Below, in pieces: positions 1 to 15,552 of a stretch of DNA of 26,009 nt. Positions within the stretch are counted from its first letter, which is position 1. Every line of letters begins with the position of its first letter. Source of the stretch: a virus; IMG/VR virus record IMGVR_UViG_3300034104_002844, positions 1 through 26,009 of that record. One strand, given 5' to 3'. Both the position numbers and the translations under genes were made by a program. Below the pieces are notes generated by a model. The model ran no database searches. It had not been told where the DNA came from and was given only the letters and a program-made list of their open reading frames with translations.

Positions 1-249
1 AATGTTGGTCCATATACAATTGATTTAAAACACGCACTTAAAAATGGTCAATTTACTGATGGTAATGCACTACTTGTAAACGAAACTAATAATCATAGTG
101 ATTGGGCTAAGAACATTAAAAAACTAGTTGAGAACCCAAATCTTATAACAGATCTTGGTGAAAGACTGTATGAATCAGTAAAAGACAAGTATGACTTGAA
201 TAACGTTACCAACACAAGGGCAGAATTTTACAAATCTTTAATTAAATAA
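1..249 (+). CDS. C-terminal end of a GT-B (GT4-like) glycosyltransferase, 5' end outside window
   Basis: Frame 1 is open from the first base to the TAA at 247-249, giving 82 residues with no start in the window. The end has the usual close of family-4 glycosyltransferases: a short loop 'GNALLVNE', then helices of the type 'W...I..L..NP.L...LGE.......DKYD', finishing with 'AEFYKSL'. These enzymes transfer sugar from a nucleotide-sugar donor to a glycan or lipid acceptor in the cytoplasm. The donor site (Glu-rich motif) would lie upstream and is not visible. Only 2 bases separate it from the next gene. The fold class is fairly sure; donor and acceptor are unknown. Confidence 0.7.
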   Translation, partial: NVGPYTIDLKHALKNGQFTDGNALLVNETNNHSDWAKNIKKLVENPNLITDLGERLYESVKDKYDLNNVTNTRAEFYKSLIK

Positions 250-251
250 AA

Positions 252-968
252 ATGATAAACATACCTATTACAAAAATTTTATTTTTAGACATTGAAACTG
301 TTGGTGGTTGTCCGGATTTTGAATCTTGTGAAAGATTTAGTCCACAGATTGCCGAACAATTTCACAAATATTTTGATTGGTTTTTAAAAAGATTTCCTGA
401 AGATGAGGCATTAAGTCCTCGTACCGAACTTAAAGATTTTATGTTTAAAAAACGAGCGGCACTTGTTCCGGAATTTGCAAAAATTGTTTGTGTGTCTGTA
501 GCATTTGTTTTAGATAACGGTGAAACAAAAAAACAATCTTTTTATGGTGAAGACGAAAAAACTTTATTAAAAGAGGTTAGAGTTCTTTTGGATCGTTGTG
601 AAAAACTTGGGTTCTATCTTTGTGGACACAATCTAAAAAACTTTGATATTCCGATGCTCGCAAAAAGAATGATTATAAATGGGATTCGTCCATCTAAAAT
701 TCTTCCATCTTATGACACAAAACCTTGGGAAATAAAAGCGATTGACACAAAAGAAATTTGGCAATATGGTTCTTATACGTCAATTGGGTCATTAGATTTA
801 TTATGTTCTTGTTTAGATATACCAACACCAAAAGATGGTGAGATTACCGGAGCAAATGTACATAAAGCATACTGGGAAGAACAAAAAATAAAAGAAATTG
901 CAGAATACTGTGAAAAGGATGTCAATGTATTAATTGATGTCATAATGAAATTAAAAAGTTTGGAATGA
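252..968 (+). CDS. DEDDy 3'-5' exonuclease, PolB-exonuclease-like
   Basis: This 238-residue protein has the three exonuclease motifs of the DnaQ/DEDD superfamily. Exo I is 'FLDIET' (D13, E15), Exo II is 'GHNLKNFDIPML' (D132), and Exo III is 'YCEKDVNVL' (Y219, D223), which makes it the DEDDy subtype. The spacing and the 'NFDIPML' signature match the stand-alone predicted PolB-like 3'-5' exonucleases. It should remove nucleotides from 3' ends using two metal ions, in proofreading or DNA repair. No polymerase domain is fused. Its stop overlaps the dUTPase start (ATGA, 965-968), so the two are probably translationally coupled. The family call is strong; the exact DNA role is inferred. Confidence 0.88.
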   Translation: MINIPITKILFLDIETVGGCPDFESCERFSPQIAEQFHKYFDWFLKRFPEDEALSPRTELKDFMFKKRAALVPEFAKIVCVSVAFVLDNGETKKQSFYGEDEKTLLKEVRVLLDRCEKLGFYLCGHNLKNFDIPMLAKRMIINGIRPSKILPSYDTKPWEIKAIDTKEIWQYGSYTSIGSLDLLCSCLDIPTPKDGEITGANVHKAYWEEQKIKEIAEYCEKDVNVLIDVIMKLKSLE

Positions 969-1558
969 TAGAAAATAATAATATAGAAAATGAAATTAAA
1001 AAATTGGTTGATGAATATGCTGACGACGATTCAACAATTGATTATGAAAAGTTAATTAATGATTTTGGAATTGATATTGAAGGAATTGAAAGGGAATTAA
1101 CAAATTATTTACCAAGATTAACTTTTAATTTCTCCACATCACATCCAGACGTTGTTGAACCAAATTACGCATACCCAACGGACTCTGGTTTTGATTTACA
1201 TTCCGTTGAAGAAATTAGTATTGGGGGTTTTGGTAGAGCATTAGTACCAACTGGACTACATCTAGATATTCCAGAAAATTATGAAATCCAAGTAAGATCA
1301 AAGAGTGGTCTGGCATTAAAACAAGGACTTATGGTTTTAAATTCTCCTGGAACTGTGGATCAAGGATACACCGGTGAAATTAAAGTTATAATTTTTAACA
1401 CAACAAAAGAAACTGTGAAAATAGAAAAAAGACAAAAAATTGCGCAAGCCGTATTATGTCCAGTTGTATGTGGAAAATGGTTGGACTTTAAGATGGTTGA
1501 TGACATTGAAGATAAAGATAGGTCTGATAATGGTTTTGGTAGTACTGGTTTAGTTTAA
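965..1558 (+). CDS. dut: dUTP pyrophosphatase (trimeric dUTPase)
   Basis: This enzyme hydrolyses dUTP to dUMP and pyrophosphate, keeping uracil out of phage DNA and supplying dUMP for dTMP synthesis. All five trimeric dUTPase motifs are visible in the 197-residue protein: I 'YPTDSGFDL' (70-78), II 'RSKSGLA' (111-117), III 'NSPGTVDQGYTGEI' (126-139, with the catalytic-loop Asp132 and Tyr135), IV 'RQKIAQ' (156-161), and V 'NGFGSTGLV' at the C-terminus. About 50 residues at the N-terminus are an extra acidic helical extension, which makes it longer than the usual 140-155 residues. It starts inside the exonuclease stop, and its own TAA shares a base with the next ATG (TAATG at 1556-1560). Confidence 0.95.
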   Translation: MIENNNIENEIKKLVDEYADDDSTIDYEKLINDFGIDIEGIERELTNYLPRLTFNFSTSHPDVVEPNYAYPTDSGFDLHSVEEISIGGFGRALVPTGLHLDIPENYEIQVRSKSGLALKQGLMVLNSPGTVDQGYTGEIKVIIFNTTKETVKIEKRQKIAQAVLCPVVCGKWLDFKMVDDIEDKDRSDNGFGSTGLV

Positions 1559-2232
1559 TGAAAAATTTAATAATCTCACCAACGGGAGAAAAAACATTAT
1601 TAAAAAACTGGGTTGGTGAAAATAGTAATTTTGATATACACCTTTTATATTATTCTGAAAATGAAAAAGAATATGAAAAATTACTAAATCAAGGATACAA
1701 AACCCAAAAAGTAAAAGGTGAGAAATGGTTTTGTTTAAAAGAATATATAACTCAAAATCCAAATTTACTGGAAGAGTATGACACATTTTGGTTTCCAGAT
1801 GACGATCTTTTTATTGAAACCGATTCAATAAACAAACTTTTTGATATTCATAACTCATATAATTTATTTTTGTCTCAACCGGCAGCAATAGGTTATACGT
1901 CACACGAAATAACAAAACCACAAAATTGTAAGTTACGGTATACAAGTTTTGTTGAGATTATGTGTCCTATGATGTCAAAAGAAACTTTAAAACTTCTTTT
2001 GGAATCTTTTGATATATCTAAATCAGGTTGGGGACTAGACATTATGTGGCCAAAGATATTAAATTACCCAAAAGATAAAATTGCAATTATTGATGAAGTT
2101 GTCATAATACATACAAAACCAATTGGTCAAAATTATGAAAATAGATTTAATGTTTCACCTATGGATGAATTTAATATGATTAGAAATAGATATTCTGTTA
2201 ATTTTAATTTTACTGAACACTCAAGAATTTAA
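1558..2232 (+). CDS. DUF707-like putative glycosyltransferase
   Basis: This 224-residue protein resembles the DUF707 family, which is thought to be GT-A-like. Visible signatures are 'FWFPDDDLFIE' (77-87, a DxD-type metal/nucleotide-sugar site), 'LSQPA' (105-109), 'RYTSFVEIMCPMMS' (127-140) and 'SGWGLDIMWPKIL' (156-168). These match the conserved 'DDD', 'SQPA', 'FVE.M.P..' and 'GWGLD' blocks I recall for the family. There is no signal peptide or membrane segment, so it is probably cytoplasmic. It is coupled to dut by a one-base overlap and begins the run of sugar genes. Substrate is unknown. Confidence 0.65.
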   Translation: MKNLIISPTGEKTLLKNWVGENSNFDIHLLYYSENEKEYEKLLNQGYKTQKVKGEKWFCLKEYITQNPNLLEEYDTFWFPDDDLFIETDSINKLFDIHNSYNLFLSQPAAIGYTSHEITKPQNCKLRYTSFVEIMCPMMSKETLKLLLESFDISKSGWGLDIMWPKILNYPKDKIAIIDEVVIIHTKPIGQNYENRFNVSPMDEFNMIRNRYSVNFNFTEHSRI

Positions 2233-2237
2233 TAAGT

Positions 2238-3110
2238 ATGAAAAAAATAGATGTATGTATAAATGTTTATGGAAAACCATATCAAACAATATTAACATTA
2301 AAGTCCCTTTTAAAACACTCAAGTCAACATATAGATAAGATTTATTTTATTGAGGAGAATCAACAACGACCTGGTTATGACTTTGATTTTATATCAAAAA
2401 ATGTTGGGTATGATAATCTGATTAGATATATACCACAACACTACCTATGGGTAAACCCAACAAACAAGGAACAAGTTTTTTCTGACGAAAATTATAGATT
2501 GTCTTGTAGGTATGAATATGGTTTATCAAATTCGGATAAATCACATATGTTATTAATTCATAATGATGTCTTATTTCATTCTGATATTGTTGGTAAATTT
2601 TTGGAAGAAGATGAAAATTATTTTGGTATTGGTCTTGTTGGTCAATGTTGGAATTGTCCTTTAAATTATGATAATATTTGTTCTGGAGAAAGACTAGAAG
2701 AAAATTTAAAAAATCAAAATTTTCATTTCATATTTGGTGTTGTAAACAAATATCCAAACACAAGACTATATGGTAAAAGAAAAAAAATAAATGTTGATAA
2801 ACCACTTCCATTATCTGAATGTAGAATAAATGAATGGTGTATGTTTATTAATTTAAATTTTTATAGAGATGAGGTTTTAAATAAAAAAGAGGTTGTACCA
2901 ATTGGTGGTTATTTTCTAGGTGACATTGGTGATTTGTGGTTTAGACAAATGGTTGATAAAGGATATAAATTTAAACATTTTAATATAGACAATTATTACA
3001 CACATGCTTATTTTTCTAACAACGCAAACGGTCATTCAGCACTTCTAGACCAAAATAAATATGATTTAGAAGAAAGTTTGGCAAAAAAATATTTAGAAGA
3101 AAATTTTTAA
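2238..3110 (+). CDS. GT-A type glycosyltransferase-like protein
   Basis: This 290-residue protein opens with a family-2-like beta strand and nucleotide-binding start ('IDVCINVYGKPYQTILTLKSL', residues 4-24). It has 'LLIHNDVLF' (105-113) where the metal-binding DxD motif normally sits, here with Asn-Asp. The late segment has 'GGYFLGDIGDLWFRQM', resembling the acceptor-side 'ED.dl..R' region of family-2 enzymes. No membrane segments are seen. It lies 5 bases after the DUF707-like gene and 1 base before the two-domain glycosyltransferase, so it is very likely part of the same operon. The GT-A fold is a reasonable reading; donor and acceptor cannot be told. Confidence 0.6.
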   Translation: MKKIDVCINVYGKPYQTILTLKSLLKHSSQHIDKIYFIEENQQRPGYDFDFISKNVGYDNLIRYIPQHYLWVNPTNKEQVFSDENYRLSCRYEYGLSNSDKSHMLLIHNDVLFHSDIVGKFLEEDENYFGIGLVGQCWNCPLNYDNICSGERLEENLKNQNFHFIFGVVNKYPNTRLYGKRKKINVDKPLPLSECRINEWCMFINLNFYRDEVLNKKEVVPIGGYFLGDIGDLWFRQMVDKGYKFKHFNIDNYYTHAYFSNNANGHSALLDQNKYDLEESLAKKYLEENF

Positions 3111-3111
3111 T

Positions 3112-4617
3112 ATGATTACAGTAATATACTCAACACATAGAACAAAAGAATACAATGATAAGTTTAACGACCATCTTATATTAACTTCTGGACTTCAAGA
3201 AGTTCAAGTTCTACCTTATGAAAATCATAATGAATATTCATTAGCTGAACTTTATAATAAGGGAATTAAAGATTCTAAATATGATATTGTTATATGTTGT
3301 CATAATGATATTAAATTAGAAAAAAACTGGGGAAAAAAATTATTAGAAGATTTTTCCAATAACCCAGAATTTGGTCTTATAGGAAAAGCAGGTTCTTGTT
3401 ATTTTCCAGAGTCAGGTGTTTATTGGGAAAAAATGAATCAGACAATGGTAGGACAAGTATATCACCATCCACCAAATCATAATAAATGGTTAAGTAGATA
3501 TTCACCAAAATTACCAATCCTTATTCCAGTTGTAACGCTTGATGGTTTATTTTTGTCGTTTGATAAGACAAAGATTAAACATAAGTTTGACGAATCATAT
3601 GGAAAATTCCATTTTTATGACCACGGGTTTTGCGTACCAAATTATTTAGATGGAGTAAAACTTGGCGTTACCTCATCTTTTGAAATTACACACGAATCAA
3701 TTGGACAACCAAATGAGGAGTTTTATCAATCAAAAGAAATGTTCTTACAAAAGTGGGGTGATAAACTACCACTTGATTTAAAACCAGAAAACCTTTTTAT
3801 TCCAGAAATTAAAAGACAGACATTTAAAAAATTTGGGAAGGTTGCAATTATAATACCAACAAAAGGAAAAATTGAAATTCTTTTTGATTGTATTAAGTCA
3901 TATTTTGACAATTGTGATATGAACATTTTTGAAATCTTTATTGCTGACACTGGGTCAACAGATGAAGAAAAAACACAAATTAAAAATTTTATATCCGAAT
4001 ATAATAACATTAATCTTATTGAATTTGATTATTATAATTTTGCAAAGATTAATAATGAGGTTGTAAAAAATTATCTAGATAATAAACACGAATTTATCTT
4101 GTTTTCAAATAACGATATTAAAATTATGAATGATATTTTATCTGGAATGTTACAAATTTTTAAAGAAAACCCAAGAACAGGTACAGTTGGTTGCAGATTA
4201 CATTTTGAAGACAATACAATACAGCACGATGGAATATTTGTTGCAAAATCAAAAACTAACAATCTAACCTTAAGCCACATAAATTTTAAAAATTACTACA
4301 ACTACTTCAACAACACAAAAGAAGTTATTGGTAATACTGGTGGTTTAATGTTAATACGAAAAAATGTTTTTGAAAATATTGGACTTTTTAGTGAAAATTA
4401 TTTATCTTGTTTTGAAGATGTTGATTTAAATATAAAGTTAGTTTCTATTAATTTAAAAAATTATATCTGTGGTAAGTGTGTCGCATATCATTATGAATCA
4501 CAAACAAGAAAAGAGGATCCAGAAAATTTGGACAAACAAAAAATAGATTATAGTAAATTAGTACCAGTTATAAGTAATCACTGGGAAAAAATAAAAGAAA
4601 AAGTTTTTTTAATTTAA
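3112..4617 (+). CDS. Two-domain family-2 glycosyltransferase
   Basis: This 501-residue protein appears to carry two GT-A units. The N-terminal unit (about 1-225) begins 'MITVIYSTHR' and has 'ICCHNDIKL' (61-69) at the DxD position. The C-terminal unit (about 243-500) is a more classical GT2 domain: 'VAIIIPTKG' (244-252), 'IADTGSTD' (277-284), 'FSNNDIKI' (331-338), 'GNTGGLMLIRKNVFENIG' (407-424) and 'CFEDVDLNIKL' (433-443, the catalytic-base region), then 'AYHYES'. Such tandem enzymes can add two sugars in turn to a growing chain. It sits between two other GT-A genes with gaps of 1 and 3 bases. The GT2 call for the second half is strong; that for the first half is moderate. Confidence 0.8.
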   Translation: MITVIYSTHRTKEYNDKFNDHLILTSGLQEVQVLPYENHNEYSLAELYNKGIKDSKYDIVICCHNDIKLEKNWGKKLLEDFSNNPEFGLIGKAGSCYFPESGVYWEKMNQTMVGQVYHHPPNHNKWLSRYSPKLPILIPVVTLDGLFLSFDKTKIKHKFDESYGKFHFYDHGFCVPNYLDGVKLGVTSSFEITHESIGQPNEEFYQSKEMFLQKWGDKLPLDLKPENLFIPEIKRQTFKKFGKVAIIIPTKGKIEILFDCIKSYFDNCDMNIFEIFIADTGSTDEEKTQIKNFISEYNNINLIEFDYYNFAKINNEVVKNYLDNKHEFILFSNNDIKIMNDILSGMLQIFKENPRTGTVGCRLHFEDNTIQHDGIFVAKSKTNNLTLSHINFKNYYNYFNNTKEVIGNTGGLMLIRKNVFENIGLFSENYLSCFEDVDLNIKLVSINLKNYICGKCVAYHYESQTRKEDPENLDKQKIDYSKLVPVISNHWEKIKEKVFLI

Positions 4618-4620
4618 ATT

Positions 4621-5256
4621 ATGTTTAATGTAATAACACCTTTAGCTAGATATGAAAATATCGAAAAACTAAAATTAAATTTAGTTGGTCAGAATATAAT
4701 CTGGCATGTTGTAACGGACGATGACCGTAAAGAAAAGGTAAATTTTACTGAATCCTGGATAAACCATTATGTCTGCCCAAACAATAGTGTAGACTTTTGG
4801 GCCAGATCAAATTTTTCAATAAATTGGCTTTTAGAAACTCAAGACATAAAAGACGAAGAATATTATTGTATTTTAAACGATGACGACGGGTATAGTGAAA
4901 ACTTCTTTGAAGAATTGAAAACTGAAATAAATCTATCTAAAGAAAATAATTTACCGACTGATTTAGTCATTGTCTCAATGAAACGTGGAGATAACATCCC
5001 GCCTAATTTACCACCAGTTAAGAGACACCCAACAAATACATTATTTGCCAGACAAGAAAATATGTTAGTAGGTGGTGTTGGTGTGGAACAATTTTTTATG
5101 AAAGGAAAACATATAAAAAATCATAGATTACCCTTAACTGTGTATGGAGACGGAGAACTAATATCACAATTAGTAAAAATTTATCCAACACTATATGTCC
5201 CTAATTTATTTGTTAAGTTTAATTTTTTTGAACCTGGTAGATGGGAAAATTTGTAA
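4621..5256 (+). CDS. Small GT-A-like glycosyltransferase
   Basis: This 211-residue protein starts 'MFNVITPLARYENIEKL', like other GT-A enzymes of phage and marine bacteria. It has a clear metal-site motif 'CILNDDDGYSENFF' (83-96). Later segments 'NTLFARQENMLVGGVGVEQFFMKG' (about 138-161) and 'YGDGELISQL' (about 174-183) look like acceptor-binding and catalytic-base regions. It is shorter than classical GT2 enzymes (about 250-300) but seems complete. The next gene's ATG at 5270 lies 13 bases downstream. It is probably a cytoplasmic transferase in the same glycan pathway; sugar specificity is unknown. Confidence 0.6.
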   Translation: MFNVITPLARYENIEKLKLNLVGQNIIWHVVTDDDRKEKVNFTESWINHYVCPNNSVDFWARSNFSINWLLETQDIKDEEYYCILNDDDGYSENFFEELKTEINLSKENNLPTDLVIVSMKRGDNIPPNLPPVKRHPTNTLFARQENMLVGGVGVEQFFMKGKHIKNHRLPLTVYGDGELISQLVKIYPTLYVPNLFVKFNFFEPGRWENL

Positions 5257-5269
5257 ATTATTTAACTTT

Positions 5270-6223
5270 ATGAAAATATTAATTACTGGAATTCTTGGAC
5301 AAGATGGGCAAATTCTTACAGAACTATTAAAAAAAAATCATCAAATTTTTGGTGTAACTCATTTAGAAACATCAGAAAATAGGATTAAAAATTTTGAAAT
5401 TAAACATAATATAAAAATATATAAAAAAGATTTAATTCATATAAAAAATTGTATGGATTTAATTGAAGATGTGCAACCAGATGTTATTGTAAATTTTGCT
5501 GGGGTAACAAATGTTTTTAATCCTTGGGACAATCAATTAGAATTAGTAAATCAAAATCTAATAATTCCAGTAAACATATTAAATACAATTAAAGAAATAA
5601 ATCAAAACATATTTTTTTTCCAGGCATCATCTTCGCTTATGTTTGGTAATTCGGGAACAAATGAGATTTGTGAAAAAACTAATTTGAGTCCTATTTACCC
5701 ATATGGTATTGCAAAAGCATTTGTTCATAACTTAATTGATGAATATAGAATAAATTTAAACTTACAGTGTTCGTCTGGTATTTTCTTTAATCACGATTCT
5801 TTTTTTAGAAAAAATAAATTTCTTACAAAAAAATTGGCATCTTTTGTTGCGAACATTGAGAAGACCGACCCAAAAAAAATTTCATTAGGAAATTTAGATG
5901 GTTTTATTGATATTAGTCATGCATATGATTTTATGAGTGGTGTTAAATTAATAATTGAAAATAAAATGAATGAAAATTATGTATTTAGTAGTGGTAAATT
6001 AGTTAAAGTTTATGATTTGGTTAAATTATTTTTTGAATTTAAAAATCTTGATATTGAAAATTACGTAGAATATGATAAAACGCTAGATAGGAAAAATCAA
6101 ACACAAATTTATGGTAATAATAATAAGTTGAGAAGTTTGGGGTGGGAGCCAAAATTTGATTTAAAATTATTAGTTAAAGACTTAATAGAAATGGAGGTAA
6201 GATATGAAAATATTATTTGTTAA
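5270..6223 (+). CDS. NAD(P)-dependent sugar-nucleotide SDR, divergent Gmd paralogue
   Basis: This 317-residue extended SDR resembles GDP-mannose 4,6-dehydratase. The cofactor loop 'GILGQDG' (7-13) and the catalytic pair 'YGIAK' (Y145, K149) are intact. The dehydratase motif normally reading 'SSSE(M/L)(Y/F)G' is 'SSSLMFG' (120-126), so the catalytic Glu is replaced by Leu123. The substrate region 'FNHESPRRG' of the other Gmd here is 'FNHDSFFRK', and 'TRDWGHA' has become 'FIDISHA'. It is therefore unlikely to be a normal dehydratase; a reductase or epimerase acting on the keto sugar made by the gene at 10275 is more plausible. I chose the ATG at 5270 because an upstream in-frame start would add 25 residues, overlap the previous gene and place sequence before the nucleotide-binding strand. 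Confidence 0.8.
   Translation: MKILITGILGQDGQILTELLKKNHQIFGVTHLETSENRIKNFEIKHNIKIYKKDLIHIKNCMDLIEDVQPDVIVNFAGVTNVFNPWDNQLELVNQNLIIPVNILNTIKEINQNIFFFQASSSLMFGNSGTNEICEKTNLSPIYPYGIAKAFVHNLIDEYRINLNLQCSSGIFFNHDSFFRKNKFLTKKLASFVANIEKTDPKKISLGNLDGFIDISHAYDFMSGVKLIIENKMNENYVFSSGKLVKVYDLVKLFFEFKNLDIENYVEYDKTLDRKNQTQIYGNNNKLRSLGWEPKFDLKLLVKDLIEMEVRYENIIC
6193..6197 (+). promoter_or_regulatory. Shine-Dalgarno-like site
   Basis: GGAGG lies 6 bases before the ATG at 6204, inside the 3' end of the upstream SDR gene. Most other starts in this window have only A-rich upstream sequence, as is common in Bacteroidota, so this site is an exception. It supports 6204 as the true start of the GT-B gene despite the 20-base overlap. 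Confidence 0.5.
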
Positions 6224-7121
6224 TCACAAACAAACAAAATGCGGTGTTTACCAATATGGTAAACGATTATACGAGATTTTAAAAAAATCAAAAACGTATC
6301 AAATAATGTATTTTGAATTGGGGTCAAGTACAGAGTTAACTCAAGTGTTAGAAGAAACTAAACCTAATTTAATATTATACAATTGGCATGAATTAACAAT
6401 GTCTTGGGTTAATCAAAAATTAACAAATGAATTATCAAAATATAAACAAATTTTTATATACCACGAAGCCGGATTTAATACCAATATGAAATATGATGGG
6501 TTAATTTATATTAACTTTTTTGAAGATGAAGATAAAAAAATTTTTACAATACCAAGACCCATTTATGAAAATAATTTTACAAAACAAAATAATGAAATTG
6601 TTACTTTTGGTAGTTTTGGTTTTGGGTTTCATAACAAGGGTTTTGAAAGGATTTGTCATTTAGTAAACTCAACGTTTGATACTGCAAAAATTAGGCTACA
6701 CATACCAAACTCACATTTTTGTGACTTTACAGGTAGTATATCTAATTCAGTAATTGACAATTGTAGAAAGATAGTAAAAAAAACAATTGATTTAGAAATA
6801 ACAACTCATTTTATGAGCGATTATGAAATTTTAGAGTTTTTAAATTCAAACGACGTAAATTTATTTTTATATGATCAAATGCCTGGTAGAGGTGTTTCAT
6901 CATCAACAGATTATGCTGTTAGTGTTGACACACCATTAGTTATTAACGATTCGGTAATGTTTAGACATATCACAGATAAAAAACCAGAAATATCAATTGA
7001 CAATAATAATCTAGAAACTATACTTTCACTAGGTTTAGAACCTATTCATTTTTTTAGAAAAGAATGGAGCAATGAAAACCTAATAAATAAATTCATTAAA
7101 ATTATAGAAAAAATATGTTAG
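6204..7121 (+). CDS. GT-B type glycosyltransferase
   Basis: This 305-residue protein begins 'MKILFVNHKQTKCGVYQYGK', the typical N-terminal Rossmann strand and Gly loop of GT-B enzymes. In the middle, 'TFGSFGFGFHNKGFERI' (134-150) matches the donor-binding 'GS.G..KG...' block. 'GRGVSSSTDYAVSVDTPLVI' (about 228-247) occupies the place of the E-x7-E donor motif, but without clear glutamates, so the active site is atypical. It overlaps the upstream SDR by 20 bases and the next gene by 7, which points to translational coupling. It is probably a retaining transferase in the same glycan pathway; donor unknown. Confidence 0.68.
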   Translation: MKILFVNHKQTKCGVYQYGKRLYEILKKSKTYQIMYFELGSSTELTQVLEETKPNLILYNWHELTMSWVNQKLTNELSKYKQIFIYHEAGFNTNMKYDGLIYINFFEDEDKKIFTIPRPIYENNFTKQNNEIVTFGSFGFGFHNKGFERICHLVNSTFDTAKIRLHIPNSHFCDFTGSISNSVIDNCRKIVKKTIDLEITTHFMSDYEILEFLNSNDVNLFLYDQMPGRGVSSSTDYAVSVDTPLVINDSVMFRHITDKKPEISIDNNNLETILSLGLEPIHFFRKEWSNENLINKFIKIIEKIC

Positions 7122-8338: not shown

Positions 8339-8970
8339 AATATTACGCAGAATTTGAAACGGACAAAATTATAAGAGAAACTTATTTTCCGGATTTAACC
8401 TTTAAAGGTACTATTGTTGAGGTCGGTGGAGCAACACCTGAATTTTTGTCAATGTCAAAACATTTTAAAGATAATGGATGGCGAGCGGTGGTTATAGAAC
8501 CAAACCCAAAGTTTGTTGAGGAACATAAAAACGTAAATAACGAAGTTTATCAATATGCGTGTTCAGATGAAAACAAATTTGGTGAGTTTACAATTGTTGA
8601 GCAACAGGTTAATGCTTACGGAGGAGTTGTAACTGATCACTCGTTTTCATCAATTGCAATAAAGGAAAGTTATTTGACTAAAACAAACTTATCACTTTCA
8701 GACTTAAAAACAAAAAAAATTCAAGTAGAAATTAGAAGACTAGACTCTATACTCCAGGATTTAAATATTGACACCGTAGATATTTTATCTATAGATGTTG
8801 AAGGTTGGGAATTAGACGTTATGTTAGGTCTTGATACTGAAAAAATAAATTGTAAACTGATTGTTGTTGAAAATTTTTTAAATGATATAGAATATAATAA
8901 CTATTTTGAAAAAATTGGTTATGTCTTGAAACAAGAAATAAACTATAACCAAATATATGTAAAAAAATGA
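8335..8970 (+). CDS. FkbM-family methyltransferase, first of three
   Basis: This 211-residue SAM-dependent methyltransferase carries FkbM signatures: motif I 'VEVGGATPEF' (28-37), acidic ribose-binding strand 'VIEPNP' (53-58), 'RRLDSIL' (134-140) and 'SIDVEGWELDVM' (152-163). FkbM enzymes O-methylate hydroxyl groups, often on sugars or polyketides. The usual Ala of 'VGA' is Gly here, a mild change. It overlaps both neighbours by ATGA (8335-8338 and 8967-8970), a tightly coupled arrangement. Its place among glycosyltransferases and sugar-nucleotide genes suggests it methylates the glycan. Confidence 0.85.
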   Translation: MKYYAEFETDKIIRETYFPDLTFKGTIVEVGGATPEFLSMSKHFKDNGWRAVVIEPNPKFVEEHKNVNNEVYQYACSDENKFGEFTIVEQQVNAYGGVVTDHSFSSIAIKESYLTKTNLSLSDLKTKKIQVEIRRLDSILQDLNIDTVDILSIDVEGWELDVMLGLDTEKINCKLIVVENFLNDIEYNNYFEKIGYVLKQEINYNQIYVKK

Positions 8971-9665
8971 AAAAAGAGATTATACATTTAAACAAAAAAA
9001 TAACAATAAACCTACACGAAAATGAAATTGTATCGTCGTCTATAAATGATAGTAGTAAGTTTTTTGAAGTGGAATTTTTAGAATTTGTAAGAAATAATTT
9101 TCAAAAACAAAAAACGATTATTGATATTGGCGCTAACATTGGCAACCATTCTTTATTTTTTTCAGAATTTTTAGAGTATGATGAAATAATTTGTTTTGAG
9201 CCCTTTGAAAAAAATGTTGAGTTACTTAAGCTTAATTTAAATGGTAAAAATTGTAAAATAATGGATTTTGCGCTTAGTGATTCGGAATCTGAAAAAATAT
9301 TGTATAATAGTCAGTCAAATAATTTTGGTGGATTTTCATTACATTCTTATGATGGGAGTAAAGGAGAAAATAAGTCATTTATTGTTAAAGACAAAGTAAC
9401 TACTAAAACTTTAGATAGTTTAAACCTTACTAATGTTACTATGATTAAAATAGATGTTGAGGGTCATGAGAACGAGGTACTAAATGGTGGTGTAAAAACA
9501 ATAAAAAGAAACTCTCCAGTAATTTTTATTGAAAATTTAAGTAGTGGGTATCCTCATTTATTTAAGGATTCACAATTTGATGAATTTTTTGAAAAAATAA
9601 ACTACACTAGAATTCATAAAAACATTGAGGGGAGTTTTATGGATTTATGGGTACCAAAAAAATAA
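8967..9665 (+). CDS. FkbM-family methyltransferase, second of three
   Basis: This 232-residue protein is the most classical FkbM of the three. It has 'IDIGANIGNHSLFF' (52-65) for SAM binding, 'CFEPFEKN' (76-83), 'KTLDSL' (147-152) and 'KIDVEGHENEVLNGG' (161-175). An N-terminal 45-residue segment ahead of the Rossmann core may be a substrate lid. It starts in the stop codon of the first FkbM gene. It is clearly a paralogue in family terms but not a recent copy of its neighbours, since identity outside the motifs is low. Likely role: O-methylation of a sugar hydroxyl. Confidence 0.87.
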   Translation: MKKEIIHLNKKITINLHENEIVSSSINDSSKFFEVEFLEFVRNNFQKQKTIIDIGANIGNHSLFFSEFLEYDEIICFEPFEKNVELLKLNLNGKNCKIMDFALSDSESEKILYNSQSNNFGGFSLHSYDGSKGENKSFIVKDKVTTKTLDSLNLTNVTMIKIDVEGHENEVLNGGVKTIKRNSPVIFIENLSSGYPHLFKDSQFDEFFEKINYTRIHKNIEGSFMDLWVPKK

Positions 9666-9671
9666 AAAAAG

Positions 9672-10271
9672 ATGTATTATTCACAATCTGATCAAGACAA
9701 ATGGGTTACAGAATTTTACCAAAACAAAAGAAATGGTTTCTTTGTTGAGGTGGGAGCTTATGACGGTATACAAACTAGTAATACTTTTTTCTTTGAACAA
9801 AGTTTAGGTTGGTCTGGAATCTGTATTGAAGCAAACCCAAACGTTTTTAATAGACTAATTAAAAATAGAAAGTCAATTAATTTAAACTATGCAGTCACTG
9901 ACTATGAAGGTGAGTGTTTTTTTAGCAATGACAGAATTTCAAATACTGGGAGTAAAGTAAAATGTTTACCATTAGAAAAAATCTTAAAGGAAAATGACTG
10001 TCCAAGAAAAATTGATTATTTGTCAATGGATATTGAGGGGCATGAATACATAGTATTAAAAAATTTTAATTTTGATGAGTTTGAAATTGGTCTTATGACA
10101 ATTGAGCACAATCTTTATTGTGACGGAAACGAAAGAAAAGATTTAATCTATAACTTACTAACAAGTAAAGGTTTTACGAGAGTTGTAGATAACGCTGTCT
10201 GTTTAGATAAGAACCCATTATACTATAATAAACCTTACGAAGACTGGTACGTTAATAACAAACTATTATAA
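9672..10271 (+). CDS. FkbM-family methyltransferase, third of three
   Basis: This 199-residue protein begins with the 'YSQSDQDKWV' element seen in a distinct FkbM branch. It then has 'FVEVGAYDG' (24-32), 'CIEANP' (51-56), 'CLPLEKIL' (98-105) and 'SMDIEGHEYIVLK' (118-130). Length and motif order fit a complete enzyme. It lies 6 bases after the second FkbM gene and 3 bases before gmd. The different N-terminus suggests a different methylation position or acceptor from its two neighbours. The family call is strong; the target is not known. Confidence 0.86.
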   Translation: MYYSQSDQDKWVTEFYQNKRNGFFVEVGAYDGIQTSNTFFFEQSLGWSGICIEANPNVFNRLIKNRKSINLNYAVTDYEGECFFSNDRISNTGSKVKCLPLEKILKENDCPRKIDYLSMDIEGHEYIVLKNFNFDEFEIGLMTIEHNLYCDGNERKDLIYNLLTSKGFTRVVDNAVCLDKNPLYYNKPYEDWYVNNKLL

Positions 10272-10274
10272 AAA

Positions 10275-11261
10275 ATGAAAAAAGCAGTAATAACAGGAAT
10301 AAATGGTCAAGACGGTTCATATTTGGCAGAATTTCTTTTAGAGAAAGGTTATGATGTTCACGGTATAATGAAGCGTAACTCTGTATCGGAAACACAAGCA
10401 ATTAGAGTTGAGCATATTAGTGATAAAATAACATTACATTACGGAGATATAACAGATTTATCTTCTTTAATACGTATTTTTAGTGAAGTACAACCTAATG
10501 AAATTTATAATCTTGCTGCACAATCTCACGTTAGAATTTCGTTTGACGAACCAATATATACATCACAAGCAACCGGTGTTGGTGCTTTAAATGTTATTGA
10601 GGCGGTAAGACTTTTAAAACTTAATTCTAAAATTTACCAAGCTTCTTCTTCTGAAATGTTTGGAAACAATATAGATGACGATGGTTACCAAAGAGAAACA
10701 ACTAGAATGATACCCGTGTCACCATATGGTGTTTCTAAATTATTTGCCCATAATATGGGTATAAATTATAGACATTCATATAATATGTTTATAAGTAATG
10801 GAATTTTATTTAACCACGAATCCCCAAGAAGGGGTACAAACTTTGTAACAAATAAAGTTTGTAAAGAAGCGGTTAAAATAAAACTAGGTTTAACAGATAA
10901 ATTAAAATTAGGAAATTTAGACGCAACAAGGGACTGGGGACACGCTAAAGATTATGTTGAGGCAATGTGGTTAATACTACAACAAGAAAGTCCAGAAGAT
11001 TTTGTGTGCTCAACAGGAGTCTCACATTCCGTGAAGGATTTAGTGATTTATGTTTTTGAAAAATTAGAACTAAATTGGTCTAATTATATATCAACAGATA
11101 AAAAATACTTGAGACCAGAAGAATTAAACGATTTAAAAGGAGACTCAACAAAATTAAGGTCTTTAACAGGATGGAAACCAAAATATACTTTTGAGACTAT
11201 GTTAGACGAAATGGTAGAATATTGGTTAGACTATTTTAATAAACAAACAAATAACAAATAA
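10275..11261 (+). CDS. gmd: GDP-mannose 4,6-dehydratase
   Basis: It converts GDP-D-mannose to GDP-4-keto-6-deoxy-D-mannose using bound NADP(H), the entry step to GDP-fucose, GDP-rhamnose, perosamine and branched 6-deoxysugars. The 328-residue protein has the cofactor loop 'GINGQDG' (8-14), 'YNLAAQSHV' (78-86), the active-site 'SSSEMFG' (124-130) with catalytic Glu127, 'SPYGVSK' (Y151, K155), 'FNHESPRRG' (179-187) and 'ATRDWGHAKDYVEAMW' for GDP-mannose binding. It is slightly shorter than typical bacterial Gmd (about 340-375). No GDP-mannose-making gene is visible here, so it probably draws on the host pool. Its TAA shares a base with the phoH ATG. Confidence 0.93.
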   Translation: MKKAVITGINGQDGSYLAEFLLEKGYDVHGIMKRNSVSETQAIRVEHISDKITLHYGDITDLSSLIRIFSEVQPNEIYNLAAQSHVRISFDEPIYTSQATGVGALNVIEAVRLLKLNSKIYQASSSEMFGNNIDDDGYQRETTRMIPVSPYGVSKLFAHNMGINYRHSYNMFISNGILFNHESPRRGTNFVTNKVCKEAVKIKLGLTDKLKLGNLDATRDWGHAKDYVEAMWLILQQESPEDFVCSTGVSHSVKDLVIYVFEKLELNWSNYISTDKKYLRPEELNDLKGDSTKLRSLTGWKPKYTFETMLDEMVEYWLDYFNKQTNNK

Positions 11262-11998
11262 TGACTAGAAAAAAACCAGTAACAACAACAAAAGAAGAAA
11301 CGACACAACAACCCCTTTCAAGAAAGGATTTTATCAATTCAGTGGTTAAAAAAAGACAAAAGAATAAATTTTTAACAGAACACCAAGAAGAGTATTACAA
11401 TATTTTAAAAAACAATGAGATAACAGTTGCGTCTGGAGCTGCAGGTGTTGGTAAGTCATACATCGCTATGAAGGCCGCGGTAGATTTATTAATTGATCCA
11501 GATAATTCATACGAAAAAATTATAATTGTTAGACCGGCTGTTGAAGCTGAAGAAAAATTAGGTTCACTTCCTGGTAATTTAGAAGAAAAATTGGATCCGT
11601 ATATTTTTCCATCTTACTATTTGTTAAACAAAATTATAGGTAAAGACGCTAGAGAAAAATTAAAGGATGCCGAAATTATAGAAGTATTTGCTTTGGCTTA
11701 TATGAGAGGTATGAATATTGACAATTCTATTTTAATTTTTGAAGAAGCTCAAAACTCAACACCAAACCAAATGAAATTACTATTGACAAGAATTGGTTAT
11801 AATAGTAAATTCTTTATATCTGGCGATTTAGAACAAACCGATAGATATAAAGATAAAAGACAGTCTGGTCTTTATGATGCAATACAAAGATTTACTGATA
11901 TTCCAAATATTGGTGTATATGATTTTAGAAACGCAAAAAATGTTCGTAACCCATTAATAGGTAAAATTTTAGCAAAATATGAAGAGAATAGGGATTGA
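11261..11998 (+). CDS. phoH: PhoH-like P-loop ATPase
   Basis: This 245-residue PhoH family protein has Walker A 'GAAGVGKS' (59-66), the PhoH block 'RPAVEAEEKLGSLPG' (91-105), Walker B 'ILIFEEAQNSTPNQM' (157-171), sensor-like 'SGDLEQTD' (187-194) and a late 'VRNPLI' (228-233). PhoH proteins are common in marine phages and have been linked to RNA metabolism or nucleotide-dependent stress functions, but their phage role is unsettled. The N-terminal 30 residues are Thr/Lys-rich and look disordered. It is coupled to gmd by TAATG and overlaps the next gene by 20 bases. The family call is secure. Confidence 0.92.
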   Translation: MTRKKPVTTTKEETTQQPLSRKDFINSVVKKRQKNKFLTEHQEEYYNILKNNEITVASGAAGVGKSYIAMKAAVDLLIDPDNSYEKIIIVRPAVEAEEKLGSLPGNLEEKLDPYIFPSYYLLNKIIGKDAREKLKDAEIIEVFALAYMRGMNIDNSILIFEEAQNSTPNQMKLLLTRIGYNSKFFISGDLEQTDRYKDKRQSGLYDAIQRFTDIPNIGVYDFRNAKNVRNPLIGKILAKYEENRD

Positions 11999-12641
11999 AA
12001 TTAATGGTGTACTAAGAGACACTATTGGAAAGTTTAAACAGATTTATGAAAAAAACTTGTTAGATTCAAATTTAGAAGAGCAAACTATTAAAACTTTTGA
12101 ACTTGATTATTCTGGAAACACGGAAGAAATTACATTACCAGAGCCATTTAAATACGAAATTACTAGTGATGTAACATCTATGGATTTAATGTCACATTTT
12201 AAATTTCAAAACAACGAAGAACTTTATTCTTTTATGTATGAAGAATATACAATGGAATTATTTGGTCACGCACCATCTAGTGAAATGACAACATTTAATA
12301 TGTTAAATGATTTGTATTATGATTTAAGAGATAAGTTTGATTTATTAATTATTTCAGATGAAATTGGTAAATCAAAACCAGCATCACTATTTTTTTTAGC
12401 CAAGTTTGGTTGTTTAATTGAACAAGTTGTTTTTTATTCAGAATCAACAAAAAATAGATTATGGGATAAGGTTGATATATTAATCACGGCTAATCCTGCA
12501 ACTATTGAAAGTCACCCAGAAGATAAAATTGTAATTAAATATCAAACAAAATACAACGAAAGCACAAAATGTGAGTTTGAAATATCCACTTTGTCTGATT
12601 TTAATTTATTATTAAATAAAATCAATAAGGAATATGTTTAA
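11979..12641 (+). CDS. Degenerate HAD-like protein
   Basis: This 220-residue protein looks like a HAD-superfamily fold. It begins 'MKRIGIEINGVLRDT', where the nucleophile motif DxDG(T/V)L would be, followed by 'LLIISDEIGKSKPASLFFLAKFG' (122-144, split around motif II Ser126 and a motif III-like Lys) and 'DKVDILITANP' (163-173). The two motif I aspartates are Glu7 and Asn9, so ordinary phosphoryl transfer through an aspartyl intermediate seems unlikely. It may have a binding or regulatory role. The start at 11979 overlaps phoH by 20 bases, and the next gene overlaps its end by 8. The fold call is moderate; function unknown. Confidence 0.5.
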   Translation: MKRIGIEINGVLRDTIGKFKQIYEKNLLDSNLEEQTIKTFELDYSGNTEEITLPEPFKYEITSDVTSMDLMSHFKFQNNEELYSFMYEEYTMELFGHAPSSEMTTFNMLNDLYYDLRDKFDLLIISDEIGKSKPASLFFLAKFGCLIEQVVFYSESTKNRLWDKVDILITANPATIESHPEDKIVIKYQTKYNESTKCEFEISTLSDFNLLLNKINKEYV

Positions 12642-12927
12642 AATTTTTAATGAAACCTACTACGTTGACATTGACAAAATTGACGAGTACGTACAATTCA
12701 CAGAGGAAACTGTAGAAGAAACCGATACGGAAAATGAAGAAGTTACCAAAGAGGAAAAACAAATTCATCTAGTAAGATATGAATTAGTAAAAAACTTTTT
12801 GGAGACAGTATTAACCGAATCAAACGAAGTCGACGAAGACTTAGGTATGAAAACTAACGAAGTTTCAATACCATTTAAAATTGCTTTTAATTCGTTATTA
12901 GTAAAAAAAATAATAAACAAAATATAA
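12634..12927 (+). CDS. Small acidic protein of unknown function
   Basis: This 97-residue protein is not one I recognise with certainty. It begins 'MFKIFNETYYVDIDKIDEYV', has a Glu/Thr-rich stretch at about 24-45 that is probably disordered, then a helical part ending 'FKIAFNSLLVKKIINKI'. There is no signal peptide or membrane segment. It overlaps the HAD-like gene by 8 bases and lies 7 bases before the next GT-B gene, so it belongs to the same transcript. The clean fit between neighbours supports it as a real gene. Confidence 0.65.
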   Translation: MFKIFNETYYVDIDKIDEYVQFTEETVEETDTENEEVTKEEKQIHLVRYELVKNFLETVLTESNEVDEDLGMKTNEVSIPFKIAFNSLLVKKIINKI

Positions 12928-12934
12928 AATTATT

Positions 12935-13993
12935 ATGAACACAGAAAATTTAGAAAAGTTAGAAAAGTCCATTGAGAATTTAAAAAATAAAAACTCAAGA
13001 ATTTATTTTTTCGTTCAGGACACAAAAGGTAATGCAAGGGCATCTGTCAGATTGATTTATCAAATGGCACATAGTCTTAAAACGAAAGGGTATAATGCCA
13101 TTATTTTACACGAAAAATCAGAGTATTTTGGTGTATCATCTTGGTTAGATGAAAAATTTATGGTGGATTTGGAACACAAATATGTTGAGGGTACGAATTT
13201 AGAAATTTCACCAGAAGACTTTATTGTAATTCCAGAGATTTATGGTTTCCTTATGGATCAAATTACTAAACTTCCTTGTGGAAAAATTGTATTGTGTCAA
13301 GCTTATGACCATATTTTTGAGACTTTACAACCAGGTGAAACTTGGCCAACCTTTGGGTTTTATAAATGTATTACAACTTCAGAAAAACAAAAAGATTATA
13401 TTGAGTCTGTTATGAGAAATGTATCTGTTGATGTTGTTAATCCGGTAATTTCCGAGGTATTTGAAAAAAATCAATATCCACCAAAAACTGTTATTTCCAT
13501 CCACACTAGAGAACAGCGTGATACGGTTAATTTAATTAAAACTTTTTATACAAAATTCCCACAATATAGATGGATTACTTTTAGAGATATGAGAGGTTTA
13601 AGTGAGGTAGAATTTGCTAATGGTATGAAAGATAGTTTTCTTTCTGTATGGATTGATGAAAGATCAGGTTTTGGAACATATCCTTTAGAGTCAATGAAAA
13701 TGAATGTACCAGTTATTGGTTTAGCACCTAATTTAGTACCAGAATGGATGACAGAGGATAACGGTATTTGGATTAATAATTTTAACGGTATTGTTGAGGT
13801 TGTTGCAGACTTCATCCAAAATTGGTTAGAAGATAATATTAGTCCAGAATTATTTGTTGAAATGGAAAAAACAGCTAACACTTATTCAAACTATGAAAAA
13901 TTTGAATCAAACGTTGAGGAATTATTCTCAACATATATTTCAACAAGATTAGAGTCTTTTGAAGAACAATTAAATAAATTTCAAACAATATAA
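12935..13993 (+). CDS. GT-B (GT4-like) glycosyltransferase
   Basis: This 352-residue protein has the two-Rossmann GT-B plan. After a 20-residue charged helix comes 'IYFFVQDTKGNARASVRLIYQM' (23-44), with the glycine/arginine-rich N-terminal donor loop. The C-terminal domain begins near 'PPKTVISIHTREQRDTV' (182-198). It carries 'WIDERSGFGTYPLESMKMNV' (239-258), which matches the family-4 'E.FG..P.E.M..G.P' donor-binding block including Glu252. The product resembles phage and marine bacterial GT4 proteins acting on surface glycans. It is separated from the main sugar block by phoH, the HAD-like gene and a small gene. Sugar specificity unknown. Confidence 0.75.
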   Translation: MNTENLEKLEKSIENLKNKNSRIYFFVQDTKGNARASVRLIYQMAHSLKTKGYNAIILHEKSEYFGVSSWLDEKFMVDLEHKYVEGTNLEISPEDFIVIPEIYGFLMDQITKLPCGKIVLCQAYDHIFETLQPGETWPTFGFYKCITTSEKQKDYIESVMRNVSVDVVNPVISEVFEKNQYPPKTVISIHTREQRDTVNLIKTFYTKFPQYRWITFRDMRGLSEVEFANGMKDSFLSVWIDERSGFGTYPLESMKMNVPVIGLAPNLVPEWMTEDNGIWINNFNGIVEVVADFIQNWLEDNISPELFVEMEKTANTYSNYEKFESNVEELFSTYISTRLESFEEQLNKFQTI

Positions 13994-13999
13994 TTAGAT

Positions 14000-14806
14000 A
14001 TGGAAAACGAAATTAAAATCTCCGTGGTATTACCAATTAAATCTGGTAAATCCCCATTTTTTGATGATTACTTTAATAAAGCAATAACATCTGTAAAAAA
14101 CCAAGGTGAATATGTACAAGAATTGATTATTGTACATACAGACGAAACTTTCTTGGTAAATCATTTAACTAACTATGACTTTGGTGATTTAAATGTGGTT
14201 TTGGAATCTTGGACTAGTGAACCTAGTTTTGGTGAACAAGTTAATAAGGGTGTTGAACTATCAAAATCTAATTGGGTTTCATTTATAGAATTTGACGATG
14301 AATACTCAAATATATGGTTTAAAAATGTTGTAAACTATATTAACATCTATAAAGAAACTGATGTGTATCTTCCAGTTGTTGTTGATGTTGACGATAAAGG
14401 GGTATTTGTTGGGTTTACAAACGAAGCAACTTTTGCTGCCAACTTCTCACAAGAAATGGGTATATTAACCAACGAAACATTACTATCATACCAAAACTTT
14501 CAAATTTCAGGTATGGTTTTCAAAAAAGAAGTATTTAATAAATACGGAGGACTAAAACCATCAATTAAACTTACATTTGGATATGAGTTGTTATTAAGAT
14601 TAACTAACAATGCTGTTAATTTTATGACAATCCCTAGAATTGGTTACAAACATACAAATTTAAGAGAAGGTTCAATTTTCTGGAACTATAAAAATGGGTC
14701 TGAAAAATTGTCTGAAGATGAAGTTCGTTTTTGGATTGATACCGCTAAAAAAGAATATTTCTTTACACAAGATAGAAATATAAAATACGAACCACAAGAA
14801 GTTTAA
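14000..14806 (+). CDS. GT2-like glycosyltransferase
   Basis: This 268-residue protein opens 'IKISVVLPIKSGKSPFFDDY', a GT-A/GT2 start. It continues with 'ELIIVHTDE', 'FGEQVNKGVELSKSNWVSF' (about 77-95) and 'IEFDDEYSNIWF', in which Phe-Asp-Asp takes the place of DxD. The later 'ISGMVFKKEVFNKYGGL' and 'FGYELLLRL' match the acceptor-side region. The long Asp/Val-rich middle is unusual for the family. It lies 6 bases after the GT-B gene, and its TAA shares a base with the sigma-factor ATG, linking the last sugar gene directly to late regulation. Confidence 0.72.
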   Translation: MENEIKISVVLPIKSGKSPFFDDYFNKAITSVKNQGEYVQELIIVHTDETFLVNHLTNYDFGDLNVVLESWTSEPSFGEQVNKGVELSKSNWVSFIEFDDEYSNIWFKNVVNYINIYKETDVYLPVVVDVDDKGVFVGFTNEATFAANFSQEMGILTNETLLSYQNFQISGMVFKKEVFNKYGGLKPSIKLTFGYELLLRLTNNAVNFMTIPRIGYKHTNLREGSIFWNYKNGSEKLSEDEVRFWIDTAKKEYFFTQDRNIKYEPQEV

Positions 14807-15552
14807 TGCTTGATGAAAACAGTTTAGAAACAGAAAACACAATACAGAAAAAGAAAGGACGAAAACCAAAAACAAATAATTATTTTGATGAGAGAGAAGA
14901 AAATGCGGTTAGGATGTTTTTAACCGCATCTACTTTTGACGAAAAGAATAAAATTTACAATGACTTTTTGAAGGATCCTTTAGATAAGATGATTTCGTCA
15001 ATTATAAGACGATACAAATTATACAGAAAAGATATGGACTTTAATGAAATCCATATAGACACTCACTCTTTTTTGATGACAAAAATAGAAAAATTTAAAC
15101 CGTCAAAAGAAAAAAAAGCTTATTCATATTTTGGTACAATCTGTAAAAATTATTTGATGGGTCAAATAATGAAAGATCAAAAGGAGATGAATAGAAAAAT
15201 TTCGTATGAAGATATTTCATCTGATTTACAAAATAATCCAGAAATGATATATCACATTGATAATGACCATTTGACTTCAGAAGAAATTATTGAGAAATAT
15301 TTAGAAAAACTAAAAGAAACAATGGAAGATGATTGCTCAACGGAGCAAGAAATAAAACTAGGTCAAGCACTTTACGACATTTTTATCAATTACGAAAACA
15401 TTTTTTTTGACACTAGTAATAATAAGTTCAATAAAAATGTAATTCTATTTGAAATTAGGGAGATGACAAATCTCACAACAAAAGAAATAAGAAGCTCAAT
15501 AAAAAGGTATAAAAAATTATATTTTCAATTGTTACAGGAATTACTAAAATAA
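14806..15552 (+). CDS. Sigma factor, T4 gp55-like late type
   Basis: This 248-residue protein resembles the compact sigma factors of T4-like and other large phages. A region 2-like core (about 55-135) contains 'DPLDKMISSIIRRYKLYRK' and 'AYSYFGTICKNYLMGQIMKD' (105-124), typical of sigma region 2.1-2.3. The C-terminal part 'MTNLTTKEIRSSIKRYKKLY' could be a region 4-like HTH. An N-terminal 'KKKGRKPKTNN' (15-25) looks like an AT-hook-type basic stretch. It would direct host RNA polymerase to late promoters. It sits directly before the virion genes, which are its likely targets. I am confident it is sigma-like, less so of strict gp55 equivalence. Confidence 0.72.
   Translation: MLDENSLETENTIQKKKGRKPKTNNYFDEREENAVRMFLTASTFDEKNKIYNDFLKDPLDKMISSIIRRYKLYRKDMDFNEIHIDTHSFLMTKIEKFKPSKEKKAYSYFGTICKNYLMGQIMKDQKEMNRKISYEDISSDLQNNPEMIYHIDNDHLTSEEIIEKYLEKLKETMEDDCSTEQEIKLGQALYDIFINYENIFFDTSNNKFNKNVILFEIREMTNLTTKEIRSSIKRYKKLYFQLLQELLK

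Follow-up and report, generated by a model that had tools for sequence, protein, structure and literature searches.

Large phages have long been known to carry clusters of glycosyltransferase (GT) genes, and it is unsettled whether the products act on the host, on DNA or on the particle. This question is raised by the IMG/VR virus record IMGVR_UViG_3300034104_002844, which was analysed over its whole length of 26,009 bases (the window). Its left part holds a run of glycan genes around dut and phoH, for which a preliminary description had offered decoration of the virion, hypermodification of DNA or a change of the host surface. Comparison with related viral loci divided this run into fixed GTs and a cassette between dut and phoH that is exchanged between near-identical phages. 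An ordered, hypervariable glycan locus with swap-like evolution and a soluble enzyme set was well supported, with little doubt left. Among the three functions, decoration of virion proteins fared best, a change of the host surface was possible and DNA hypermodification was weakest. That phage enzymes glycosylate virion proteins in the cytosol, with variants akin to serotypes, is predicted from the genes and was given a probability of roughly one half.

Exchangeable cassette between dut and phoH

Relatives of the locus were collected by a scan for PhoH. The best 80 of 558 matches were retained, so that all counts hold for near relatives. In 59 loci, dut and phoH were found on one stretch, yielding 39 distinct cassettes with the window's own included. 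The borders are the dUTPase gene g3 (965..1558; PF00692) and the PhoH gene g15 (11261..11998; PF02562), which are present in 39/39 loci by selection. Between them, all 39 held the core GT g6 (3112..4617) with two GT2-type domains (PF13712 and PF00535). Cassettes measured 2.8-14.8 kb and comprised 2-19 genes counting g6, with a median of 11; two had one gene besides g6. Open reading frames (ORFs) were called with an ATG start, at least 60 aa and greedy choice. Clustering at 35% identity grouped the 403 cassette ORFs, g6 copies included, into 174 families, of which 117 had a single member. A Pfam tally of 362 ORFs was dominated by glycan enzymes: GDP_Man_Dehyd (at least 40), GT2 (at least 36), FkbM (at least 30), Methyltransf_24 (at least 24), DegT aminotransferase (at least 22), GT11 and hexapeptide transferase (at least 17 each) and GT10 (at least 12). 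It was pooled over cassettes from the best 25 of 63, 67 and 56 families, one ORF may count in several families, and g6 copies and two of 364 ORFs (L092:7233-7496 and L093:10759-10944) were omitted. The presence of g6 between dut and phoH in 39 distinct cassettes, together with these tallies, argues that the glycan gene run is not due to chance. The earlier statement that pathways this large are rare in phages was too strong, given cyanophage P-SSM2, the pelagimyophages and the 39 cassettes of 2-19 genes.

The frame around the cassette was conserved. Genes g1 to g20 lie on one strand (+) with spacings of -20 to +13 bases if 5270 is taken as the start of g8, in agreement with the nearly gapless run described before, and dut and phoH were confirmed by Pfam as neighbours. 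At the left end, g1 (1..249) is the C-terminal end of a core GT, whose full ORF of 374 aa was present in an overlapping record. It was found in 34/39 distinct loci, and the remaining five fetched stretches start right of it. A full-length g1 homologue matched Glyco_trans_1_4 with E=0.0012, below the cut-off. The 3'-5' exonuclease g2 (252..968; PF10108, phrog_25228) was present in 38/39 loci. Of 18 stretches extended upstream, 17 showed the order GT-exonuclease-dUTPase-g6, cut short only by the end of a stretch; the exception was L094, where the order was not found. In 26/39 distinct loci g6 directly follows dut, with 1-6 genes between them in the others, including the window. To the right of phoH, the core GT-B enzyme g18 (12935..13993) and the core GT-A enzyme g19 (14000..14806; GT2, PF00535) were present in 39/39 loci. 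It would describe the island better to separate the fixed GTs g1, g6, g18 and g19 from an exchangeable cassette that spans g4-g14 (about 1558-11261) and has g6 as its constant member.

Seven flank proteins were compared with cassette content in all pairs of the 39. L038 and L043, with flanks of 99.7% identity, shared 17% of cassette genes at ≥70% identity and 33% at ≥35%. The corresponding values were 15% and 30% for L096/L097 (flanks 98.9%), 0% and 0% for L035/L103 (98.3%) and 10% and 20% for L071/L101 (98.1%). L022/L023, with flanks of 97.3%, shared 53% of cassette genes. Some locus pairs had about 60% flank identity yet shared up to 37% of cassette genes at ≥70%. Two record pairs were aligned as a whole. 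G019 and G020 showed mostly 96-99% nucleotide identity across about 52 kb and only two unalignable stretches of at least 800 bases, both between dut and phoH; shorter gaps occurred elsewhere. One of the two begins 24 bases ahead of the start of phoH; identity in the g6 piece was 89.6%. Outside the cassette, divergence was greatest in a few small ORFs and in a protein near the right flank (689 vs 815 aa) whose start resembles a signal peptide. G039 and G040 had nucleotide identities of 86.5% and 92.7% on either side of a 7.9-kb unalignable block, whose end lies immediately ahead of g14's first base; a further 4-kb stretch leftward was also unalignable. Swap junctions were located at or near gene boundaries in both pairs, with g14 as the right border in one. 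The exchangeable cassette between dut and phoH and its near-complete difference between near-identical phages appear to be new, as a variant of the GT islands already described in phages. Recombination of co-infecting phages would replace most of the cassette at once, yielding near-identical phages with different coats, much like serotype switching in bacteria.

Endonuclease-like genes were observed in the left flank of several loci, around g1 and dut (L211:5492-6406, L048:2958-3791, L044:1936-2820 and L103). Pfam assigned GIY-YIG/NUMOD3 in L048 and NUMOD3 in L211, and support for the L044-type gene was weak. In L044 and L103 the gene lies between two dUTPase-like genes. A NUMOD3-containing gene precedes g1 in the longer record overlapping the window. 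These left-flank genes are a possible driver of exchange. Bacterial relatives of the GDP-mannose 4,6-dehydratase (GMD) of the cassette reached 68-69% identity in three contigs of metagenome-assembled genomes, and the next ones ≤54%. The phage frame was absent from all three contigs, so no donor is named.

Such a run might also be neutral passenger DNA filling a large head, or host genes retained for metabolism, and 'stuffer DNA' is left open as an explanation for the lipopolysaccharide (LPS) clusters of cyanophages (PMC3037559). The open frames on one strand, the near-gapless packing, the glycan-dominated families and replacement instead of decay make this the least probable of the explanations considered here.

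The window is supported as phage-derived by its IMG/VR entry and by right-flank synteny with 80 viral loci on contigs of up to 304 kb, which answers the earlier concern about a host chromosome locus. The right flank was common to the 80 loci as far as the fetched stretches extend. A second record overlapped the window over 22,988 bases with 0 mismatches, extended 7.4 kb further leftward and completed g1. Proteins of a third record were 100% identical to those of g6-g21 of the window. Both findings indicate that the window is not a one-off chimera. The lineage, made up of freshwater jumbo phages that probably infect Bacteroidota, is probably that of the moraphages. Moraphages are described as jumbo phages with genomes of 200-307 kb, found mostly in freshwater and predicted to infect Bacteroidota (Perez-Hernandez et al. 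2025, PMC12619734). Their core includes dUTPase, PhoH, a sigma factor and four GT orthogroups; islands of variable composition are mentioned there, with their contents deferred to future work (PMC12619734). Core dUTPase and PhoH were both present in the window, and the four conserved GTs g1, g6, g18 and g19 are candidates for the four orthogroups. The window is a 26-kb fragment; syntenic relatives reach 274-304 kb. The placement fits by gene content; the MCP, TerL and PolB genes needed for marker trees lie outside the window. Among 50,697 phage records, no match was obtained by megablast of window positions 1-25000 or by tblastn of g18, g20 and g25; g14 matched 244 of them.

Further genes of the frame were likewise conserved. 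The gene g16 (11979..12641; 39/39 loci) had no Pfam match; by eye it resembles a HAD-type phosphatase with Glu replacing the first catalytic Asp, with no family match. The small acidic protein g17 (12634..12927) was present in 36/39 loci. Gene g20 (14806..15552; 39/39 loci) had been called a late sigma factor. No Pfam or PHROG match was found, and the call rests on the preliminary description and the moraphage core list. A T4-like late promoter, TATAAATA, and variants were considered and rejected: the TATAAATA pattern was absent from the loci, and a looser form preceded g18 in 41/79 loci vs a 2% background, which is explained equally well by kinship among the sequences. The right flank outside the island, g21-g27 (15565..23375; +), was syntenic and probably comprises virion genes; g21, g22, g24 and g25 were present in 39/39 distinct loci.

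Predicted sugar chemistry and site of synthesis

Three enzymes of the window's cassette point to a branched sugar. The GMD g14 (10275..11261; PF16363, E=5.6e-118), present in 20/39 loci, kept the SSE motif and matched GMDs (1n7g, E=1.7e-99). The Glu of this motif has a role in GMD. In g8 (5270..6223; PF16363), a GMD-like short-chain dehydrogenase/reductase (SDR), this Glu is replaced by L, which would suit a reductase, probably a 4-ketoreductase. Its best chains were 1rpn and 2z1m, and the reductase 2pk3 was also matched. The g8 ORF opens at 5195, with the Met at 5270 as the likelier start. The predicted NDP-sugar 3-C-methyltransferase g10 (7115..8338; PF08484) matched the D-mycarose 3-C-methyltransferase 4rv9 (E=1.1e-40) and also TcaB9. 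FkbM methyltransferases (PF05050) were g11 (8335..8970; E=1.3e-18), g12 (8967..9665; E=2.4e-15) and g13 (9672..10271; E=2e-17). The earlier counts of two SDRs, both of GMD type, one sugar C-methyltransferase and three FkbM methyltransferases were thus upheld by Pfam. A route with GMD, a TylCIII-type methyltransferase and a reductase was proposed in silico for virenose (PMC3539893). Together with the matches of g14, g8 and g10, it makes GDP-6-deoxy-3-C-methyl-hexose, capped by O-methyl groups, the likeliest product. In this route, g14, g10 and g8 would convert GDP-mannose to the branched sugar, and g11-g13 would O-methylate it. Other cassettes carried GMD genes and fucosyltransferase-type GT10 and GT11 genes in the pooled Pfam tally.

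The remaining cassette genes of the window are possible GTs. The DUF707 protein g4 (1558..2232; PF05212, E=1.4e-11) had no relative by blastp among the other 38 cassettes. Genes g5 (2238..3110; relatives in three other cassettes), g7 (4621..5256) and g9 (6204..7121) look GT-like by eye and had no Pfam or PHROG match at E<=0.01. When their profiles were compared (hhalign) with those of the core GTs and of the larger families in the cassettes, g7 gave a 91.5% match to a single cassette family of unassigned type, g5 matched its own family only, and g9 none. The preliminary description had counted 14 sugar-related genes among the first 20, with nine GT or GT-like genes. Fourteen do look glycan-related, and eight GT or GT-like genes were counted; scoring the two g6 domains separately would make nine. 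The GT calls were supported by Pfam for g6 and g19, by a structural model and a GT1 match below the cut-off for g18, and by a weak homologue match for g1; g4, a DUF707 protein, is a possible GT, and g5, g7 and g9 lack tool support. The fixed GTs would frame an exchangeable set of enzymes that make, add and cap unusual sugars.

Membrane proteins were nearly absent from the cassettes. By a hydropathy scan, just one of the 400 cassette ORFs of at least 100 aa had a hydrophobic segment, vs 98 of 440 ORFs around bacterial GMD genes. Proteins with at least six segments numbered 0/400 in the cassettes, and 19 of 44 bacterial GMD loci had one. As positive controls, the O-antigen polymerase and flippase of K-12 gave 6 and 9 segments, respectively. 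The phosphoglycosyltransferase family PF02397 was found in 0/14 records of 100-304 kb, which may be fragments (control detected in 9/14), and in none of the window ORFs. PF01943, the sole flippase family searched, was found in 0/14 of these records (control 13/14). These results suggest that the cassette enzymes are probably cytosolic and that the phages bring no such export route; that of the host may be used. As the enzymes look soluble, the glycan would be built in the cytosol of the infected cell, most likely directly on virion proteins.

The strongest rival is that the cassette remodels host O-antigen, capsule or glycolipids through the lipid carrier and flippase of the host, thereby blocking superinfection or grazing. 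It is the published reading for comparable islands in pelagimyophages (PMC7029224) and P-SSM2 (PMC2984593). The enzyme types also resemble those of O-antigen loci, and their diversity could mirror host serotypes. The near-absence of membrane proteins from 39 cassettes and of PF02397 and PF01943 from 14 records speaks against it, and it is considered unlikely, at about half the weight of virion-protein glycosylation.

Candidate acceptors

The acceptor was approached through the fixed enzyme g18. Its AlphaFold2 model (AF2; mean confidence, pLDDT, 87) showed a GT-B fold, and the top match was Actinobacillus AmGGT (8xsg; Z 28.9, 318 aligned, 3.2 A), followed by 8xsh (Z 27.8); the first entry other than these two had Z 23.4. 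In a profile search, AmGGT was the only PDB sequence at E<=0.1 (E=3.7e-14), and the Pfam GT1 match was below the cut-off. A viral fold library returned generic GTs with a query TM of up to 0.61. Gene g18 is a homologue of AmGGT/Agt by profile and fold, and might likewise extend glucose on glycopeptides or oligosaccharides. Agt proteins lengthen peptide-linked glucose chains (PMC12159676), and homology of a core GT to a family with glycopeptide extenders argues against the host-surface explanation. The g19 model (AF2, pLDDT 77; Pfam GT2) gave generic GT-A matches in the fold search.

A candidate for the start of the chains was found elsewhere in the genomes. PF11397, the GT60 type, was present in 23/48 records and in 0/14 control genomes. 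The six records of at least 274 kb all had it; three of these, G035, G036 and G038, have one shared cassette. The G019 protein matched with E=1.4e-72; at E<=0.01, no relative was found in the PDB. GT60 enzymes whose function is known modify polypeptides: one acts on Skp1 hydroxyproline, and another is a polypeptide transferase of Trypanosoma (PMC6939170). From its family, the PF11397 gene is a candidate polypeptide N-acetylglucosamine (GlcNAc) transferase, and the best one for starting the chains. Of 21 GT60 places, G007 and G031 were dropped because the motif was absent. The preceding gene was strongly Pro/Thr-rich in 6/19 places vs 11/544 ORFs of two long records, a background that takes in G021 and G035 themselves (Fisher p about 6e-6; 5/16 and p about 4e-5 with near-duplicates removed by eye, the places being interrelated). 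Among the 1,642 distinct ORFs in the stretches around the glycan locus, 12 had Pro/Thr/Ser runs of at least 9; ten belong to one family left of g1 and two are its neighbours. The window's phage has a relative of the C-terminal part of this protein (29% over 336 residues), the visible part having no run. GT60 relatives were detected in three named jumbo phages with 42-47% identity. One of them, XacN1 (46.7%), has at least two glycoproteins from proteomic analysis, for which its authors proposed phage GTs (PMC5852040).

Two partners or alternatives of GT60 were rejected. Prolyl hydroxylase was found in 2/15 records only, suggesting that hydroxyproline is no general acceptor and that Thr/Ser is likelier. 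A GT41-type O-GT was represented by just two sub-threshold fragments with a stop. Beside the GT60 gene of G021, L242:8397-12694 encodes a GT8, a GT9-like protein (below cut-off), a sulfotransferase and an APS-kinase-like protein, which suggests sulfated glycans in this phage. In G035, L220:16042-18960 (-) encodes a 972-aa protein in which GT1, GT9-like and FkbM methyltransferase domains are fused. It recalls the chlorovirus protein A064R, which joins a methyltransferase to two GT domains (PMC7826918).

In the proposed system, the GT60 enzyme would start chains on Pro/Thr-rich, fibre-like stalks. The phages might benefit by evading grazers or defences that recognise the particle, or by a change in adsorption. 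That tailed phages own a complete cytosolic protein glycosylation, with GT60 as starter, the fixed GTs for the core and the swappable cassette for the outer glycan, is a more tentative proposal, with odds somewhat below even.

Several points weigh against virion proteins as acceptors. Glycan and acceptor are predicted from genes rather than seen in virions, and this explanation is the best but unproven. Soluble GTs could use undecaprenyl-linked sugars and the flippase of the host. AmGGT refuses glycopeptides and needs oligosaccharides (PMC12159676), and the g19 model does not tell acceptors apart. GT60 was not found in 25/48 records, all of ≤154 kb, and the window's own record ends short of any GT60 gene. 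Where present, it lies at a distance: in G019, 6.8 kb separate it from g1; in 17 other records, it is 10-91 kb from the closest gene of the frame; and in G038, the distance is 267 kb when counted linearly. In 13 of the 19 interrelated places the preceding gene was under the Pro/Thr cut-off, G035 had no Pro/Thr-rich neighbour at its GT60 gene, and the Pro/Thr runs may be plain linkers. In XacN1, the GT60 gene is not adjacent to an annotated fibre gene.

Instead of virions, the glycan might be placed on phage-encoded surface proteins that the host exports through type IX secretion. Por_Secre tails were found in 6/15 records, five of them above the cut-off, indicating that some phages may export proteins by the host type IX system. 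In line with this, g31 has a GEVED domain, and the divergent protein of G019 and G020 has a signal-peptide-like start. The record of the window had no Por_Secre match and g31 is not adjacent to a GT gene, which renders this explanation improbable. By eye only, the tail of g31 (25005-26009; -) resembles a type IX secretion signal.

A further rival holds that variable glycans hypermodify the bases of the phage DNA against restriction and CRISPR. In some phages GTs act on DNA (Pyle 2024, cited in PMC12619734). A variable modification would likewise face diversifying selection. For the base hydroxymethylase of T4-type DNA glucosylation, PF00303 was searched and found in 6/48 records, and three of four sequences read carry the PFN motif, diagnostic of ordinary thymidylate synthase. 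The fourth, L106:2483-3316 of the G021 record, encodes a divergent PF00303 protein. No Tet/JBP match was obtained in 14 records, in a search that was uninformative because its control was silent. The C- and O-methyltransferases, aminotransferases and acyltransferases would seem more than a DNA glycan needs, and this rival is highly improbable. Close relatives that, over tens of kilobases, differ mainly in the cassette, the lack of an encoded export route and the candidate acceptors make the question of host, DNA or particle directly testable.

Comparison with known systems

Bacterial O-antigen and capsule loci consist of fixed flanking genes and an exchangeable middle of sugar and GT genes. 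The phage locus has the same layout. Unlike the Wzx/Wzy loci, the phages were without PF02397, PF01943 or a multi-span protein in the searches made.

Among phages, P-SSM2 carries 24 genes thought to serve LPS synthesis (PMC2984593). The T4-like cyanophages P-SSM2, S-SSM7 and S-SM2 likewise have runs of GMD, epimerase and GT genes, which in P-SSM2 are also near phoH (PMC3037559). In the P-SSM2 cluster beside hli03, the only one scanned, 0/15 ORFs had a hydrophobic segment. Exchange between near-identical phages is not described in the passages on these clusters (PMC3037559, PMC2984593), whereas it was seen here. The T4-like aquatic pelagimyophages have GT-containing hypervariable islands, the host recognition cluster (PMC7029224). 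Their island sits with tail-fibre genes, one pair showed gradual divergence and not a full replacement, and a change of the host O-chain was proposed by the authors (PMC7029224); in the present locus, core GTs frame the cassette and most of it differs between close relatives.

By gene types, the functionally closest system is the capsid glycosylation of chloroviruses. PBCV-1 has virus GTs, GMD, fucose synthase, a methylated cap sugar and cytosolic synthesis, with a conserved core and virus-specific outer sugars (PMC7019647, PMC7826918). Like chloroviruses, the present phages encode GTs and nucleotide-sugar enzymes and, for the families tested, no membrane route. PBCV-1 infects eukaryotes and its capsid N-glycan is chemically proven, whereas glycan and acceptor are predicted from genes here. 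If phages switch coats, a diversity axis would be hidden from marker-gene surveys, and the cassettes would be an enzyme source for branched and methylated sugars. Phage serotypes that switch by recombination would then be the bacterial-virus counterpart of chlorovirus capsid glycosylation.

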